Of a DNA stretch of 64,000 nucleotides, positions 19,483 through 27,967 are shown one piece after another; position 1 is the first letter of the stretch; each line of letters opens with the position of its first letter. The position numbers and the translations under genes were made by a program. Origin of the DNA: Sanguibacter keddieii DSM 10542 (GTDB taxonomy: Bacteria > Actinomycetota > Actinomycetes > Actinomycetales > Cellulomonadaceae); contig NC_013521.1 in NCBI RefSeq assembly GCF_000024925.1, forward strand, positions 1,674,001 to 1,738,000, read 5' to 3'. A model generated the notes under the pieces. That model had not been told where the DNA came from and made no database searches. It was given only the letters and a program-made list of their open reading frames with translations.

Positions 19483-21933
19483 ATGAGCGACCACCAGACC
19501 ACCAGCACCGAGCACCTGAGGGCCGCCGACCCCCGCGCCGTCGTCCAGGGGCCCGGGTACCGCATCACCGTCCTCACCAGCCGTATGCTCCGCCTCGAGC
19601 ACAGCCCCGACGGCACCTTCGAGGACCGCCCGACGCAGCTCGTCCGGGACCGTGCCTTCGACGTCCCCGAGTTCGGCGTCCGCGAGACCGAGACCGGCCT
19701 CGAGCTGTGGACCGAGCACCTCCACCTGCGCTACGACCGCGGCCCCTTCACACCCTCCGGGCTCGCCGTGTCCATGCGGCAGAAGGCCCAGGGCGCGCAC
19801 TTCACCACCTGGACCTACGGCGACCCCGCCTGGGGCACCGGTGCCCACCCGTCCAACCTCGGCGGCACGGCCCGGACCCTCGACGACGTCGACGGCGCGA
19901 CGCCGATCGAGACCGGCCTGCTCTCCACGGACGGCTACACCGTCGTCGACGACTCCACCAGCCTCGCCCTCGACGCCACCGGGTGGCCCGTGCCGCGCGA
20001 GGGCGGCGACGACCTGTACTTCTTCGGCTACGGACGTGACTTCACCGACGCGCTCGCGGACTGGTTCCGACTCACCGGGCCGAGCCCGATGCTCCCGCGC
20101 TGGACGCTCGGCAACTGGTGGAGCCGGTTCCACGACTACACCACCGACAGCTACCTGGCCCTCATGGACCGGTTCGCCGACGAGGGCATCCCGTTCTCGG
20201 TCGCGGTGATCGACATGGACTGGCACGTGACCGACATCGACCCGGCGATCGGCTCGGGCTGGACCGGCTACACCTGGAACACAGAGTTCTTCCCCGACCC
20301 CGAGGCGTTCCTCCGCGGCCTCCACGACCGCCACCTGCGGACCGCGCTCAACGTGCACCCGGCCGACGGGGTCCGTCGCCACGAGGACGCCTACGTCGCC
20401 ATGGCCACCGAGCTCGGTCTCGACCCCGAGGCCGGCGCGGCCATCGGCTTCGACATCGGGTCGCGGGCCTTCGCCGACGCGTACCTGCGGCACCTGCACC
20501 ACCCGCACGAGGAGATCGGCGTCGACTTCTGGTGGCTCGACTGGCAGTCGGGATCGGCCAGCCGCACGGCCGGCCTCGACCCGCTGTGGGCGCTCAACGA
20601 GCTGCACTACGCCGACTCCGGCCGGGACGGCGAGCGACCGCTGACCTTCTCCCGGTACGCGGGCCTCGGCAGCCACCGCACGCCCGTCGGGTTCTCGGGC
20701 GACACGATCGCCACCTGGGACTCCCTCGCCTTCCAGCCGCGCTTCACGTCGACGGCCGCGAACGTCGGCTACTTCTGGTGGAGCCACGACATCGGCGGGC
20801 ACTTCGGCGGCGCGCGTGACGACGAGCTCTCCGCCCGCTGGTACCAGTTCGGTGCCTTCTCGCCCGTGAACCGCCTGCACTCCTCCAAGAGCCCCTTCGG
20901 GTCCAAGGAGCCGTGGCGGTTCACCGAGCCGGTGCGACGCGTCATGACGGAGTTCCTCCGCCTGCGCCACCGCCTGGTCCCGTACCTCTACACGGCCATG
21001 TGGGACTCCCGCACCCACGGCGTGGGCCCGGTCCGCCCGATGTACCACGACCACCCGCGCGAGCAGCGGGCCTTCGAGGTCCCAGACCAGTACATGTTCG
21101 GCGCGGACCTCCTGGTGGCGCCCGTCGTGGTCCCGCTCGACGCGCAGACCCGCCTCGCCGCCGTCCCGGTCTGGCTGCCCGCGGGGGAGTGGGTCGACGT
21201 CTTCACCGGTCGCCGGTACGACGGCGGCCGCGACCTCGTGGTCCACCGCAGCCTCGAGCAGATGCCCGTCTTCGCCCGGGCCGGGTCGCTCGTCGTCCTC
21301 GCCGACGACCTCACCGCCGACACCGGTGCCCGTGCCGAGTCGGTCCTCGTGCGCGTCTTCCCCGGGGCCGACGGCACCACGCGCCTCGTGGAGGACGACG
21401 GCCAGGCCCGCCCGGGCCTCGCCGACCAGCAGGTGACGGTCCTGCGGCAGACCTCTACGGACGACGAGACCGCCGGCACCACCTCGGTCGTCGTCTCGGT
21501 CGACGTGCCGACCGGGCCCGGCGTCCTGCTGCACCGCACCGTGCGCGTCGAGCTCGTCGGGGTGGCCGACGTCGCCTCCGCGGTCGTCCGCACTGTGGGC
21601 GGCGAGGCCAGCGTCAGCGTCGAGCCGGGGGAGACGGGGGCGGTGCTCGACCTCGGGACCGTCGACCTGACCGAGGGGCTGACGCTCACCCTCGACGACG
21701 TCCGCCAGGCTCCCCGCGACCTGGAGGCCGCGTTCTTCACGATCGTGGACGACGCCCTCGTCGCCTACGACCTCAAGCGCGCCGTCATGGACGCGCAGTC
21801 GGCACTCGACGGCGCGGCCCTGATCGCCGCCCTGCATCGCCTCGACCTGCCGGGGAACCTCTTCGGCGCCCTCGTGGAGCAGGTCGCCGCGACCACCGGC
21901 ACCGGGGCGGACACCAGGAGGGTGAACCCCTAG
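19483..21933 (+). CDS. Glycoside hydrolase family 31 protein
   Basis: 816 residues. An N-terminal beta-sandwich (1-175) precedes the GH31 (beta/alpha)8 barrel: PRWTLGNWWSRFHDYT, VIDMDWHV, nucleophile Asp353 in DFWWLDWQ, acid/base Asp407 in GFSGDT, then FWWSHDIGGHFGG. C-terminal beta domains (about 530-816) follow. There is no signal peptide, so it acts in the cytoplasm on sugars imported by the neighbouring ABC system. The DFWWLDWQ nucleophile context differs from the WxDMNE of classical alpha-glucosidases, so the specificity is unassigned. SD AAGGAG; LacI operator upstream. Confidence 0.92.
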   Translation: MSDHQTTSTEHLRAADPRAVVQGPGYRITVLTSRMLRLEHSPDGTFEDRPTQLVRDRAFDVPEFGVRETETGLELWTEHLHLRYDRGPFTPSGLAVSMRQKAQGAHFTTWTYGDPAWGTGAHPSNLGGTARTLDDVDGATPIETGLLSTDGYTVVDDSTSLALDATGWPVPREGGDDLYFFGYGRDFTDALADWFRLTGPSPMLPRWTLGNWWSRFHDYTTDSYLALMDRFADEGIPFSVAVIDMDWHVTDIDPAIGSGWTGYTWNTEFFPDPEAFLRGLHDRHLRTALNVHPADGVRRHEDAYVAMATELGLDPEAGAAIGFDIGSRAFADAYLRHLHHPHEEIGVDFWWLDWQSGSASRTAGLDPLWALNELHYADSGRDGERPLTFSRYAGLGSHRTPVGFSGDTIATWDSLAFQPRFTSTAANVGYFWWSHDIGGHFGGARDDELSARWYQFGAFSPVNRLHSSKSPFGSKEPWRFTEPVRRVMTEFLRLRHRLVPYLYTAMWDSRTHGVGPVRPMYHDHPREQRAFEVPDQYMFGADLLVAPVVVPLDAQTRLAAVPVWLPAGEWVDVFTGRRYDGGRDLVVHRSLEQMPVFARAGSLVVLADDLTADTGARAESVLVRVFPGADGTTRLVEDDGQARPGLADQQVTVLRQTSTDDETAGTTSVVVSVDVPTGPGVLLHRTVRVELVGVADVASAVVRTVGGEASVSVEPGETGAVLDLGTVDLTEGLTLTLDDVRQAPRDLEAAFFTIVDDALVAYDLKRAVMDAQSALDGAALIAALHRLDLPGNLFGALVEQVAATTGTGADTRRVNP

Positions 21934-23548: not shown

Positions 23549-23588
23549 TTGACCCTGGACTGTACAGGGGTGTACATGTATCTACATG
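23549..23588. promoter_or_regulatory. Promoter and putative operator of the GntR operon
   Basis: TTGACC (23549-23554) is a good -35. A -10-like TACATG lies 18 bases later at 23573. Two TGTACA boxes (23561, 23571) are exactly 10 bases apart, and CATGTA-TC-TACATG (23575-23588) is an inverted repeat that includes the start codon. This fits autoregulation and a transcript starting at or next to the ATG. Confidence 0.6.
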
Positions 23589-24320
23589 ACCAGTCAGGTG
23601 ATGTACGGCAAGCGCGACCTCGTGGTCGAGACCCTCGCGGAGCAGATCCGCCGCGGTGAGTTCGCCCACGGCCAGCGGCTCGACGGCGAGCACCGCCTCG
23701 CCCAGGAGTTCGACGTCTCGCGCGGGACCATCCGTCAGGCGCTCGGAGAGCTCCAGCGCCGCCGGCTCATCGCGACCCGTACCGGCATCGGGTCCTTCGT
23801 CACCTTCGACGGCCACCCTCTCGACCAGCGCGGCGGCTGGGCGCAAGCCCTCGCGGACGCGGGGTCCGACCTCACCACCAGCGTCCTCGACATCGCGCCG
23901 GTCGACCGCGCGAGCATCCCCGGCCTGCCCGACGACGTCGATCTCGACGAGGCCGTCGCCGTCCGCCGTGTCCGCAGCGCCCAGCAGCCCGACGGCACGC
24001 AGCGCGTGCTGTCCTTCGAGTGCGCCTCGATCCCGGCGACCGGCGCTCTCCGCGACCTGCCGACGACGGGGCTCACCGACGGCTCCCTCTGGACCACGCT
24101 CCAGGCCGAGGGGCTCGTCGGGACCACGGGGGAGCAGTGTGTCGACGTGCACGCCCTCGACGAGCGCGAGGCCGGGATCCTCGGCCGCGAGCCCGGCACC
24201 GCCTTCCTGCGGACGGTCCGGACGTCCTTCACCTCGGACGGCCGCTTCGTCGAGCACGTGGTCTCCCTGCTCGACCCGGCGCGCTTCACGCTCCGCCTGA
24301 GCTTCGGGGAGGACGCGTGA
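23586..24320 (+). CDS. GntR family regulator with UTRA domain
   Basis: 244 residues. The winged-helix N-terminus contains LVVETLAEQIRRGEF, GEHRLAQEFDVSRGTIRQAL and TRTGIGSFV (to about residue 75), followed by a HutC/UTRA ligand domain. It begins the four-gene operon with the ADP-ribosylglycohydrolase, permease and kinase and presumably responds to their substrate. The ATG at 23586 has no SD and lies inside the operator palindrome; the ATG at 23601 (MYGKRD) is an alternative. The stop overlaps the next GTG. Confidence 0.88.
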   Translation: MTSQVMYGKRDLVVETLAEQIRRGEFAHGQRLDGEHRLAQEFDVSRGTIRQALGELQRRRLIATRTGIGSFVTFDGHPLDQRGGWAQALADAGSDLTTSVLDIAPVDRASIPGLPDDVDLDEAVAVRRVRSAQQPDGTQRVLSFECASIPATGALRDLPTTGLTDGSLWTTLQAEGLVGTTGEQCVDVHALDEREAGILGREPGTAFLRTVRTSFTSDGRFVEHVVSLLDPARFTLRLSFGEDA

Positions 24321-25384
24321 GCACCCCCACCACCCCCACTGCATCGGCGGGCGCCGCCGCATCGACGAGCACAGAGCCGCACCCTGCCCTCGACCGCGCC
24401 CACGGCGCTCTCCTCGGCCTGGCCCTCGGTGACGCGCTCGGCATGCCCACGCAGTCGCTGTCCCGCGAGGCGGTCCGTGAGCGCTACGGGCGCATCACCG
24501 GGTTCGTCGACGCCGCGCCCGACCAGCCCATCGCGCCGGGCATGCCCGCGGGCTCGGTCACCGACGACACCGAGCAGGCCGTCCTCGTCGCCGAGCTGCT
24601 GCTCGTGGGCGAGGGGTCCATCGACCCGGACGACTTCGCGGCTGCGCTCGTCGACTGGGAGCAGACGATGATCCTCCGCGGCTCCCGCGACCTCCTCGGC
24701 CCGTCGACCAAGGCGGCGATCACCGCGCTGCAGAACGGTGCCAGCACGGCCGAGGCCGGGCGCTACGGCACGACCAACGGCGCCGCCATGCGCGTCACCC
24801 CCGTCGGCATCGCGACGCCCCCGGGGGCCCTGCTGCTCCCCGCCGTCGTCGAGTCCAGCCAGGTGACCCACGCGACGGGCCTCGGGATCTCCGGCGCCGC
24901 GGCGATCGCGGCCGGAGTCAGTGCCGGTGTCGACGGAGCCGACGTCGGCGCGGCCCTCGACGCCGCGGTCGCCGCGGCGCGGGCCGGCGCCCGGGAGGGC
25001 GGCTGGGTCGCGGGCGCATCCGTCGCCGAGCGCTACCTCGCGCTGCTCCCGCTCGCCCGGGCCCTCGACGACGACGCCTTCGCCGACTTCCTCTACGACG
25101 TGGTCGGGACGTCCGTCCAGTCCCAGGAGTCCGTCGTCAGCGCGCTCCTGCTCGTCGACCGCTACCGCCACACCCCGGTCGAAGGGCTCTGCGTGGCGGC
25201 CTCGCTCGGCGGTGACACCGACACCGTCGCGGCCGTCGCCGGGGCGCTGCTCGGAGCGTGCCACGGTGCCCGGGCCTTCCCGGACGCCGAGGTCGCGACC
25301 CTCGAGCGCGTCAACCACCTCAGCCTCCGGACGCTCGCCGAGCGTCTCCTCGCCCTGCGCGAGCGCACCCGCTCGCGCACCTGA
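24317..25384 (+). CDS. ADP-ribosylglycohydrolase family protein
   Basis: 355 residues. Family motifs: GALLGLALGDALGMP (30-44), the metal site VTDDTEQA (T82, D83, D84) and the second metal site GGDTDT (298-303). Both halves of the di-magnesium centre are intact, so it should cleave an N-glycosidic bond. Its genomic partners are a nucleobase-type permease and a PfkB sugar kinase, pointing to a small nucleoside-like substrate rather than protein ADP-ribose. GTG start overlaps the gntR stop. A low-complexity Thr/Ala/Ser tail precedes residue 20. Confidence 0.88.
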   Translation: MSTPTTPTASAGAAASTSTEPHPALDRAHGALLGLALGDALGMPTQSLSREAVRERYGRITGFVDAAPDQPIAPGMPAGSVTDDTEQAVLVAELLLVGEGSIDPDDFAAALVDWEQTMILRGSRDLLGPSTKAAITALQNGASTAEAGRYGTTNGAAMRVTPVGIATPPGALLLPAVVESSQVTHATGLGISGAAAIAAGVSAGVDGADVGAALDAAVAAARAGAREGGWVAGASVAERYLALLPLARALDDDAFADFLYDVVGTSVQSQESVVSALLLVDRYRHTPVEGLCVAASLGGDTDTVAAVAGALLGACHGARAFPDAEVATLERVNHLSLRTLAERLLALRERTRSRT

Positions 25385-25568
25385 CCCTCCCGCACCCGAC
25401 CCTGCCGCACGCGCCCCTCGGGCAGCTACCGCATCTCCAGAACGCACCAGTCGACGAGCAGCCGTCCCCCGGCGAGCCCGCACCGCGTACCTCACCCCCC
25501 CTGCACACCAGCGCTGCCGCCGGCCCAGGCCGACCGGGCGCCGCCGCCAGACCCTCGATGGAGAGATC

Positions 25569-27020
25569 ATGACTGCAGACACCCGCACGACGAGGACGCG
25601 CGCGCTCGGCGCCGTCGAGCAGCGCGGCATCGAGCCCGTGCCCGTCGCCGAGCGCACCGGCAACCCGCTCCAGCTGTTCTGGGTGTGGTTCGCCGCGAAC
25701 ATCTCCGTGCTCGGCCTGCCGCTCGGCGTCGCGCTCGTCGCGAGCGGGCTCGCGATCTGGCAGGCGGTGCTCGTCGCCGTCCTGGGCGCCTTCGGCTCCT
25801 TCGCGATCGTCGGGCTCATCTCGATCGCGGGACGCCGTGGCGGGGCACCCAGCCTGACCCTGTCCCGCGCGACCTTCGGGGTCCGCGGCAACATCGGCCC
25901 GACCGCGGTGGCCCTGTGCTCACGGCTGGGCTGGGAGACCGTCAACACCGCGACCGCCGCCCTGGCCTTCGTGACCATGTGCTCCCTCGTCGCGGGTACC
26001 GGGTCGGGCGCCAAGGACGTCCCCGTGCTCACCGTCGTCGGGGTCGCGCTGTTCGTCGCGTGCACGGTCGCGGTGTCGGGCATGGGCCACGCCTTCATCC
26101 TCGTGGTGCAGAAGTGGGCCACCTGGATCTTCGGGGCGATCAACCTCCTGGTCATCGGGTTCCTCGTGGTGAACGTCGACTGGTCGCTCGTGCTCGACAC
26201 CCCCACCGGCAGCGTCGCCGCCGTCCTCACCGGGATCGGGACCATCGCGGCCGGCACCGGCATCGGCTGGGCCAACTCCGGCGCGGACATGGCGCGCTAC
26301 CAGGCGCCGCGGGTCAAGGCCAGCGCGCTGGTGGCCTCTGCGGCCGCAGGCGCCGGCATCCCGCTCGTCCTGATGATCTCGATGGGGTCGCTGCTCGGGG
26401 CCTCGGACTCCCAGGTGCTCGGTGCGTCGAACCCCATGGACGCCATCCGCGACACCCTGCCGTCGGGCATGGCGGTCGTCTACCTCGTGGTGTCCTTCGT
26501 GGGGCTCCTGCTGTCCAACCACCTGTCCGTCTACTCGGCCGGCCTCACCACCATCACCCTGGGGATCCGCCTGCCGCGCGTCTACGCGGTGATCGTCGAC
26601 GTGGTCGTCACCACCGTCGCGTCCCTGTGCTTCCTGCTGCTCGCCGACGGCTTCTACGGCCCCTTCATCACCTTCATCTCGCTGCTCGCGGTCCCGATCG
26701 TCGCCTGGGTCGGGGTGTTCTGCGTCGACATGATCGGGCGCACGAGCTACGACGGCGACGCCCTGCTCGACCTCAGCCCGCGCTCGGGCTACTGGTACCG
26801 CGGCGGCATCGAGTGGCGCGCCTTCGGCTCGTGGCTGCTGGCCATCGTCGTCGGCGCGCTGTTCCTGCAGGTCCAGCCCGGAGAGGCCGTCTGGTACACC
26901 GGGCCGCTGCACGACTCGTGGGTGGGGCAGAACGGGCTCGCCTGGGTGGTGACCGCGGTGGTCGCGGCCGGCGCCTACGCTCTGGCCGGCGGCGCTCGAC
27001 GCCAGGAGCGCGTCCGATGA
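25569..27020 (+). CDS. NCS1 family nucleobase/hydantoin-type permease
   Basis: 483 residues with about 12 membrane helices. The start MTADTRTT and NPLQLFWVWFAANISVLGLPLG, then SRATFGVRGN and GIGWANSGADMARYQ, place it with CodB-like nucleobase:cation symporter-1 proteins. Typical substrates are cytosine, purines, hydantoins, uridine or thiamine; the actual one is unknown. A 184-base gap without an evident gene separates it from the glycohydrolase, and its stop overlaps the kinase start (ATGA). The N-terminus is hydrophilic for about 35 residues. Confidence 0.88.
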   Translation: MTADTRTTRTRALGAVEQRGIEPVPVAERTGNPLQLFWVWFAANISVLGLPLGVALVASGLAIWQAVLVAVLGAFGSFAIVGLISIAGRRGGAPSLTLSRATFGVRGNIGPTAVALCSRLGWETVNTATAALAFVTMCSLVAGTGSGAKDVPVLTVVGVALFVACTVAVSGMGHAFILVVQKWATWIFGAINLLVIGFLVVNVDWSLVLDTPTGSVAAVLTGIGTIAAGTGIGWANSGADMARYQAPRVKASALVASAAAGAGIPLVLMISMGSLLGASDSQVLGASNPMDAIRDTLPSGMAVVYLVVSFVGLLLSNHLSVYSAGLTTITLGIRLPRVYAVIVDVVVTTVASLCFLLLADGFYGPFITFISLLAVPIVAWVGVFCVDMIGRTSYDGDALLDLSPRSGYWYRGGIEWRAFGSWLLAIVVGALFLQVQPGEAVWYTGPLHDSWVGQNGLAWVVTAVVAAGAYALAGGARRQERVR

Positions 27021-27967
27021 CGGGGCGCGTCGTGCACACCGGTCAGGCGATCGTCGACCTGGTCATGGAGGTGGGTGCCGTCCCCGAGCCCGGGGGCGAC
27101 ACCTTCGCCCGGCGCCACGTGCTCGCGGCAGGCGGTGGCTTCAACGTCATGGCGGCCGCCGCCCGCGACGGCGCACGAGTCCTCTACGCGGGGGCGCACG
27201 GCACCGGGACCTTCGGCGACCTCGTCCGCACGGCGATGACGGCAGAGGGGATCGAGGTGCTGTCCGAGCCCCGTCCCGACCAGGACACCGGCTTCTGCGT
27301 CGCCCTCGTCGACGACTCGGCCGAGCGCACCTTCGTCTCGACGCTCGGGGCCGAGGGAGACGTCACCGTCGACGACTACCGGGCCGCGCACGTCCGCGCG
27401 GGCGACGTCGTCTACGTCACGGGCTACTCGGTGCTGCACCAGGCGAGCCGGAAGGCGCTGCTCGAGTGGCTGCTCGAGCTCCCGTCGGGCGTCAAGGTCG
27501 TCGTCGACCCGTCACCTGTCGTGGGTGACGTCCCCCTGGAGGCGGTCCGAGGGGTCGCCCGGTCGGCGACGGTGTGGAGCACCAACGAGCGCGAGGCGCA
27601 GGTCCTCCTCGGGCGCCTGGGCATCGGGAGCCCTGCCACCCCGGAGGAGCAGGCGTGGGCGCTCGCGCAGCAGCTCGCGTGCTCCGTTGTCCTGCGTGCA
27701 GGCGCCGGCGGGGCGACCGTCGTGCGCCTCGATGCCGAGACGGGAGACCTGACCGCTGCCGTGCACGTCCCCGCCCACGCGGTACGGGCCGTCGACACGA
27801 ACGGCGCGGGCGATGCGCACTGCGGGGTGCTCTGCGCCGAGCTGGCCGCCGGGCGCGACCTCGTCACGGCGGTGCGTCGCGCGAACGTCGCCGCGGGCAT
27901 GGCGGTCGCCCGCCGCGGCCCGGCCACCTCGCCGACGCGCGCGGAGATCGACGCTGCCGAGAGGTAG
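27017..27967 (+). CDS. PfkB family carbohydrate/nucleoside kinase
   Basis: 316 residues. N-terminal GGGFNVMAAAARDG (substrate-binding signature) and C-terminal anion-hole motif DTNGAGDAHCG (260-270, catalytic Asp266) define a ribokinase-like PfkB enzyme. It probably phosphorylates ribose or a nucleoside released or imported by its operon partners. ATG overlaps the permease stop by four bases. Confidence 0.9.
   Translation: MTGRVVHTGQAIVDLVMEVGAVPEPGGDTFARRHVLAAGGGFNVMAAAARDGARVLYAGAHGTGTFGDLVRTAMTAEGIEVLSEPRPDQDTGFCVALVDDSAERTFVSTLGAEGDVTVDDYRAAHVRAGDVVYVTGYSVLHQASRKALLEWLLELPSGVKVVVDPSPVVGDVPLEAVRGVARSATVWSTNEREAQVLLGRLGIGSPATPEEQAWALAQQLACSVVLRAGAGGATVVRLDAETGDLTAAVHVPAHAVRAVDTNGAGDAHCGVLCAELAAGRDLVTAVRRANVAAGMAVARRGPATSPTRAEIDAAER

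Follow-up and report, generated by a model that had tools for sequence, protein, structure and literature searches.

A four-gene cluster of Sanguibacter keddieii encoding a regulator, an ADP-ribosylglycohydrolase-fold hydrolase, a permease and a kinase: a putative catabolic operon for a nucleoside-like N-glycoside

The window analysed here is a stretch of 64,000 nucleotides of Sanguibacter keddieii DSM 10542 (contig NC_013521.1, positions 1,674,001 to 1,738,000; positions below are counted from its first letter), in which four + strand genes encoding a regulator, a hydrolase, a permease and a kinase form one unit at 23586-27967. Judged from protein families and conserved neighbourhood, this unit is probably an operon under its own regulator that serves the catabolism of a nucleoside-like N-glycoside, and a core pathway of import, glycoside cleavage and sugar phosphorylation is likely. 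The regulator (P0001) would repress from a site at 23561-23588 and be released on binding a pathway metabolite, the NCS1-family permease (P0003) would import the compound, the two-metal hydrolase (P0002) would cut the glycosidic bond at the sugar C1, and the PfkB-family kinase (P0004) would pass the sugar to central metabolism as its phosphate. Uptake, hydrolysis and phosphorylation had been put forward in an earlier reading of this DNA (hereafter the original prediction), to which two options may be added: that phosphorylation precedes hydrolysis, and that the aglycone is a pyridine instead of an ordinary nucleobase. A pyridine, as in nicotinamide riboside, nicotinate riboside or a related N-glycoside, is our leading candidate for the aglycone, with a probability of about 0.35.

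Curated Pfam cut-offs were passed by all four encoded families. The first gene (23586-24320) encodes a 244-amino acid (aa) GntR-type regulator with a UTRA domain (PF00392, 53.8 bits; PF07702, 34.3 bits), the second (24317-25384, GTG start) a 355-aa hydrolase of the ADP-ribosylglycohydrolase (ADPRGH) fold (PF03747, ADP_ribosyl_GH, 201.6 bits), the third (25569-27020) a 483-aa NCS1-family permease (PF02133, Transp_cyt_pur, 172 bits for a cut-off of 23.5) and the fourth (27017-27967) a 316-aa PfkB-family sugar kinase (PF00294, 134.6 bits). The four families, their shared direction and their coordinates are thus as originally predicted. The junctions, which had been described as overlapping or close, comprise 4-bp overlaps between regulator and hydrolase and between permease and kinase, and a hydrolase-permease gap of 184 bp (25385-25568), which is close and not overlapping. 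No NCBIfam model listed reaches its cut-off for the four proteins, and scans of the stretch gave no sigma-70-like promoter, terminator-like or Rfam match.

Relatives were searched in a named-genome set, in which at least 489 were confirmed and the best 80 kept; five plasmid loci were added, giving 85 loci. As 52 of the 80 genome loci are from Pseudomonas and the other 28 from 14 other genera plus two Bifidobacteriaceae, the counts are not counts of independent lineages. The original prediction had pointed to ADPRGH homologues near PfkB kinases as the neighbourhood by which it could be checked, and hydrolase and kinase genes occur together in 84 of the 85 loci, the exception (L075) lying on a contig that stops about 180 bp past the hydrolase match. 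The order regulator-hydrolase-transporter-kinase, where transporter means NCS1, is found in 65/85 loci; the other orders are hydrolase-kinase (8), regulator-hydrolase-kinase (6), regulator-hydrolase-kinase-transporter (2), hydrolase-kinase-transporter (2), hydrolase-transporter-kinase (1) and regulator-hydrolase (1). Given this conserved order and co-occurrence, the four-gene arrangement is not due to chance. When neighbouring genes were clustered, the four cluster genes formed the four largest families (71, 69, 64 and 42 loci, obtained with a crude gene caller); the next-largest family covers 29 loci, and its listed examples, not each of which was checked, read as mostly Pseudomonas neighbours.

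When 59 near relatives and 394 genomes from the same class were searched, 13 other loci were found with a hydrolase about 46-68% identical to P0002. Twelve of them have one or more of the partners regulator, permease and kinase at a distance of up to about 1.5 kb; in the thirteenth (L041), the sequence stops about 200 bp past the hydrolase match. Around 27 loci of weaker homologues (L002 and L007-L032, some overlapping), a span of about 1.5 kb held no partner. The hydrolase of L043 is about 35% identical and is accompanied by a weak kinase match. The cluster is spread over Actinomycetota, Pseudomonadota and Bacillota and is also plasmid-borne. A scan of viral contigs returned one relative (L150), and the L062 and L063 loci share the same neighbour genes.

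The structural model of P0002 has a mean predicted confidence (pLDDT) of 94.7, and its best matches in the PDB are MJ1187, DraG and ARH3. Both metal motifs, T82-D83-D84 (24560..24568) and D300-T301-D302-T303 (25214..25225), which the original prediction had recognised in the hydrolase, are present, and their residues (for the second motif D300, D302 and T303) are invariant in 30 aligned sequences, P0002 included. Two other active-site positions set these proteins apart. At the position of the Glu flap, all 30 aligned hydrolases carry Gln (Gln46, codon at 24452..24454) versus Glu in DraG and MJ1187, and all 30 have a TNG loop (T153-N154-G155, 24773..24781) versus GNG in DraG and in the paralogue of the same genome. 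The TNG loop also occurs in YegU and in Lactobacillus and Listeria proteins, and the YegU branch retains Glu (GMPSE) at the flap position. The value of the loop as a signature is limited by its variation in other ADPRGHs, with SCG in MJ1187 and NCG in the L221 group. We take Gln46 to correspond to ARH3 Glu41 by motif and spacing only (residues 46 and 82 in P0002, residues 41 and 76 in ARH3), and Thr153, in what would be the loop near the ADP-ribose, presumably stands at the position of ARH3 Gly150. The E41A and G150E variants of ARH3 are reported to have severely reduced activity, and the enzyme also acts on alpha-NAD+, an N-glycoside for which the authors consider the first nucleophilic step unnecessary (PMC8319183). 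P0002 also misses the cut-offs of the curated models for DraG (82.9 vs 337.05 bits) and Tri1 (65.3 vs 490 bits). We infer that its substrate would be smaller than, or different from, an ADP-ribosyl protein, and that its leaving group would require little activation; the conserved context together with the altered active-site signature would favour a small molecule over an ADP-ribosylated protein.

In the hydrolase tree, the kinase-linked clade, which includes YegU, is separated from 15 other actinobacterial ADPRGHs with a support of 98/97, to be read with caution for long branches. The genome of S. keddieii carries a second ADPRGH (L218, about 397068-397934 of G000:C1) of the GNG/Glu type; no match to the kinase, permease or regulator of the cluster was found in the 11 kb region around it.

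The importer varies around a constant hydrolase and kinase: NCS1, a Pot-type ATP-binding cassette (ABC) transporter, a nucleoside H+ symporter or a phosphotransferase system (PTS), the last with no kinase annotated nearby. The Pot-type ABC transporter takes the place of NCS1 in Mesorhizobium, Rhizobium, Paracoccus, Salinicola and Burkholderia stagnalis, and the nucleoside H+ symporter YegT belongs to the cluster of E. coli, Salmonella and Pantoea. In Listeria (L138) and Enterococcus raffinosus (L137), a PRD antiterminator, a beta-glucoside-type PTS IIABC and an ADPRGH form a unit, near which no PfkB kinase is annotated in the stretch inspected; these hydrolases fall inside the kinase-linked clade, next to YegU. 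P0003 itself had no PDB sequence match at E 0.001 and misses the NCS1 model TIGR00800 (69.5 vs a cut-off of 353.1 bits). The yeast nicotinamide riboside transporter Nrt1 is reported to be homologous to the NCS1 protein Thi7 (PMC6837554).

The kinase model (pLDDT 95.9) has ribokinases as its best PDB matches. P0004 misses the ribokinase model TIGR02152 (117 vs a cut-off of 299.65 bits), and YegV outscores RbsK and PsuK as a match to it. It departs from RbsK at what we take to be the substrate Glu region. As to the order of steps, we lean slightly towards the kinase acting first and the hydrolase then cleaving the sugar phosphate, as in PsuK/PsuG. This lean comes mainly from the PTS branch, near which no PfkB kinase is annotated and which is nested in the kinase-linked clade: import by a PTS phosphorylates the sugar, so that the kinase would be dispensable in Listeria and Enterococcus and the hydrolase would act on a phosphorylated glycoside. 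Against it stand the ribokinases as closest structures of P0004, and a different ADPRGH group that pairs with a true RbsK-like kinase.

An operator-like site TGTACAGGGGTGTACATG (23561..23578, + strand) at the start of the regulator gene matches the pattern TGTACAKGNNTRNACAKG exactly, and a second, overlapping site 10 bp further (23571..23588, + strand, 1 mismatch) extends to the start codon. The same pattern is found at the regulator-gene start in both Actinomycetota and Pseudomonadota, with an exact match in 57 of 75 upstream regions of regulator homologues, a count that is circular since the pattern was derived from these 75 regions, so that only its genome-wide uniqueness is independent. 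None of 1500 mononucleotide shuffles matches the pattern at 0 or 1 mismatch. In the genome of S. keddieii the single exact match is the one at 23561. Matches are carried by 17 of 20 cluster-bearing genomes (19 in total, 18 of them at the cluster); the location at the cluster was established by coordinates in eleven genomes, S. keddieii included, and the seven further matches were assigned to it as sites upstream of a regulator, two of them being overlapping copies in one genome. The reversed control pattern gave two matches, both in one of the 20 genomes. A second exact match in Pseudomonas oryzihabitans, at the start of a gene read as VOC family, was taken as chance. P0001, which resembles YegW only in its DNA-binding helix-turn-helix (HTH) part, looks like a single-target autoregulator in the manner of GgaR/YegW, which was described in 2024 as a single-target repressor of yegTUV that ADP-glucose releases from the yegT region in vitro and whose loss raises glycogen (PMC10819704).

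The pyridine candidate originates from genes found next to the cluster. In Pantoea, the stretch immediately upstream of yegTUVW holds a complete nicotinate pathway (molybdenum hydroxylase, MarR regulator, 2,5-dihydroxypyridine dioxygenase, monooxygenase, hydrolase, racemase-family isomerase, amidohydrolase and a major facilitator superfamily (MFS) carrier); the Nic names used here are our assignment from the known pathway, the Pantoea records naming only the dioxygenase. NicX is present on 9 of 15 YegU-bearing Pantoea plasmids, at 6.6-6.9 kb from YegU in all nine. In P. oryzihabitans, nic genes 61-84% identical to those of Pantoea begin 0.5 kb past the kinase, and in B. stagnalis they adjoin the ABC variant of the cluster. 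Over the 85 genomes or records, NicX was found in 17 and lies less than 20 kb from the hydrolase in four: P. oryzihabitans (8.0 kb), Rhodococcus (6.3 kb, where the nic-like genes are preceded by formamidase- and nitrilase-type genes), B. stagnalis (10.8 kb) and P. gingeri (17.2 kb). By chance, 0.12 cases would be expected at up to 20 kb (Poisson P 8e-6), to be read with the proviso that catabolic genes are not randomly placed; same-genome controls within 20 kb gave 0/14 for urocanase and 0/13 for pcaH. The count is partly retrospective, as the query was picked after the Pantoea loci had been seen, and the nic genes of L101 and L116 and a NicT-like gene of L128 were already known from the flanks, two of the four cases having been noticed beforehand; NicX of B. 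stagnalis and of P. gingeri came to light in the systematic search that followed. Two Lactobacillus plantarum plasmids with an identical hydrolase carry an NrtR-type regulator, a nicotinate phosphoribosyltransferase and an isochorismatase upstream of hydrolase-NCS1-kinase. S. keddieii would gain the sugar, and the pyridine set free could enter NAD synthesis or be lost.

Several other neighbours were considered for this list. In P. chlororaphis and P. morbosilactucae (one of them L067), NicT-like MFS genes in the vicinity of the cluster were dropped, these genomes having no NicX at E 1e-30, and a NUDIX gene downstream in Paraburkholderia is MutT-like and was not counted as pyridine evidence. 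In Gardnerella, Amycolatopsis and one more actinobacterial genus (L117, L119, L105, L110, L208 and L209), an isochorismatase-family gene follows a divergent NCS1, and this variant may point to a different, amide-bearing aglycone. Nicotinate phosphoribosyltransferase genes are frequent on lactobacillus plasmids, where cassettes of the L198 and L199 type, made up of a NUDIX/NrtR-type regulator, this phosphoribosyltransferase and an isochorismatase, represent mobile NAD salvage (two cassettes inspected).

Several observations weigh against the pyridine. Within Pantoea, which is one lineage, 6 of the 15 YegU-bearing plasmids (two inspected) are without NicX. At E 1e-30, NicX is absent from 68 of the 85 genomes or records (for plasmid loci the plasmid alone was searched); where present, it lies 206 kb away in Paraburkholderia and on another contig in 12 of the 17. 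It occurs in 1 of 17 actinobacterial genomes, on another contig, and no NicX was found in the S. keddieii genome at E 1e-20, which has two PnuC-family genes, so that uptake of nicotinamide riboside may already be covered. Its excess over the controls is only modest (Fisher P 0.018, and 0.051 without P. gingeri); in P. gingeri about 9.5 kb of other genes separate the nic genes from the cluster, and in Rhodococcus NicX (37% identical) and NicC (32%) are distant homologues. The NrtR-pncB-isochorismatase cassette of the L. plantarum type is also found by itself, next to a recombinase, on other Lactobacillus plasmids, and the hydrolase-NCS1-kinase trio occurs without it on three other plasmids; since each occurs separately, the L. 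plantarum neighbourhood may be a cargo hot spot or chance cargo. The reading of the Gardnerella-type isochorismatase as a nicotinamidase was withdrawn, as it lacks the DxH motif that is present in the L. plantarum protein and that we take to be the nicotinamidase metal motif, although it keeps the D-K-C triad to which we assign the presumed catalytic roles. The pathway can do without Gln, given that Glu is retained in the YegU branch, and with Glu41 needed in ARH3 too, Gln46 is no proof of a pyridine. The beta-glucoside-type PTS partner suggests a hexose in the Listeria/Enterococcus branch. Finally, no importer was recognised beside L044, L045, L054, L062, L063, L109, L118 and L121, where unmatched neighbours were partly identified. 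A non-exhaustive survey of the open-access literature, with subscription journals largely outside it, returned no report tying the cluster to nicotinamide, nicotinate or nicotinamide riboside.

Ordinary purine or pyrimidine nucleoside catabolism, in which NCS1 would take a nucleoside or base derivative, the hydrolase would be a nucleoside hydrolase and the kinase a ribokinase, is in our view rather unlikely. The importer families NCS1 and nucleoside H+ symporter and the structural matches of P0004 to ribokinases agree with it, and the L. plantarum cluster has a nucleoside hydrolase gene in its vicinity, on the opposite strand. It is also favoured by 5 of 20 regions around other actinobacterial ADPRGHs (L221, L223, L230, L231 and L227), which hold a true RbsK-like ribokinase; the L221 region also has an ABC permease and a second ADPRGH, and that of L227 an IU-type nucleoside hydrolase. 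These ADPRGH/RbsK-like loci probably represent a separate riboside pathway. On the other side, no gene of such catabolism was recognised among the 40 commonest neighbour families (by eye, one example each, with no search), and the kinase misses the ribokinase cut-off and is unlike RbsK at the presumed substrate Glu region.

A nucleoside-diphosphate sugar, or a product of its breakdown, has been proposed for E. coli yegTUV, but seems improbable as the substrate here. The response of GgaR/YegW to ADP-glucose and the effect of its loss on glycogen speak for this proposal; P0001, however, is like YegW in its DNA-binding part only, the changed loop would disfavour an ADP moiety, and ADP-glucose is an intracellular product that neither NCS1 nor a PTS would be expected to carry. 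Least credible is a protein de-ADP-ribosylation enzyme of the DraG/ARH type sitting in the operon by happenstance, which was set aside on motifs and gene context: the fold and metal motifs are shared and DraG and ARH3 are among the best PDB matches, but Gln and TNG replace Glu and GNG throughout, the DraG and Tri1 cut-offs are missed, and a constant kinase linkage, mostly with a solute importer, has no place in it.

Returning to the pyridine aglycone, a broader proposal may be made more tentatively still: the hydrolase clade, YegU included, could consist of pyridine-nucleoside hydrolases acting on the riboside of nicotinamide or nicotinate, perhaps as the alpha anomer and perhaps once the partner PfkB kinase has phosphorylated it at the 5' position, and the operon could be a horizontally mobile route for the salvage or catabolism of vitamin B3 glycosides, its transporter swapped between lineages, which would explain yegTUVW. 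If so, residues needed for ADP-ribosyl-protein were changed in this clade. If the hydrolase is a small-molecule N-glycosidase, a catabolic role would be added to the ADPRGH superfamily, and the annotation ADP-ribosylglycohydrolase would be a misnomer for many genes; a review treats ARG domains as ADP-ribose removers (PMC9503650). The cluster is widespread, on plasmids and on reported staphylococcal cassettes, and includes an E. coli K-12 operon without known enzymatic function. Further upstream in the window, a long open reading frame (19483-21933) was taken by eye as a GH31-type glycosidase, with no search made.

The closest known system is yegTUVW of E. coli, whose likeness to this locus the original prediction had recognised. 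It holds for the hydrolase (36% identical to YegU over 331 aa, E 2e-55) and for the kinase, whose gene is adjacent (28% identical to YegV, E 5e-32), for the single clade of the hydrolase tree and for the same three functional roles; a single-target GntR-family regulator is reported in E. coli and one operator-like site is predicted here. It fails for the transporter, YegT being a nucleoside H+ symporter (PF03825) and P0003 an NCS1 permease (PF02133), and for the regulator, whose gene is convergent and downstream in E. coli and which is similar to P0001 in the HTH only; YegU also has Glu in GMPSE where P0002 has Gln. In E. coli (L129) and Salmonella (L144), yegTUVW lies beside thiD-thiM (thiamine salvage). 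The statement that the substrate of yegT-W is not established holds for the enzymes, a response of the regulator to ADP-glucose being now reported (PMC10819704).

An ADP-ribosylglycohydrolase / cytosine-purine permease / ribokinase trio is in print from the staphylococcal cassette chromosome (SCC) (PMC3637587, PMC3321955, PMC3900703). By published description, which is the sole basis of this comparison, the trio of S. epidermidis RP62a (SERP2218-2216) has the same gene types and order; in the portions of these reports consulted, no regulator is listed directly with it and no function is studied. With DraG, ARH1 and ARH3 the hydrolase shares the fold and the two-metal motifs, and differs in Gln for Glu, in TNG for GNG and in missing the curated DraG and Tri1 cut-offs. 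P0004 shares the PfkB fold of the ribokinase RbsK and fails the curated ribokinase score. The PsuT-PsuK-PsuG system of E. coli likewise has adjacent genes, all on one strand, for an importer, a PfkB kinase and a glycosidase, and possibly a kinase-first logic; P0004 is only 23% identical to PsuK, and the glycosidase fold of PsuG is, we assume, unrelated to that of P0002. The trio in the SCC, and yegTUVW in the GgaR paper, were thus already known, and what is new here is the Gln/TNG signature, the importer swaps and the nicotinate-gene neighbours.

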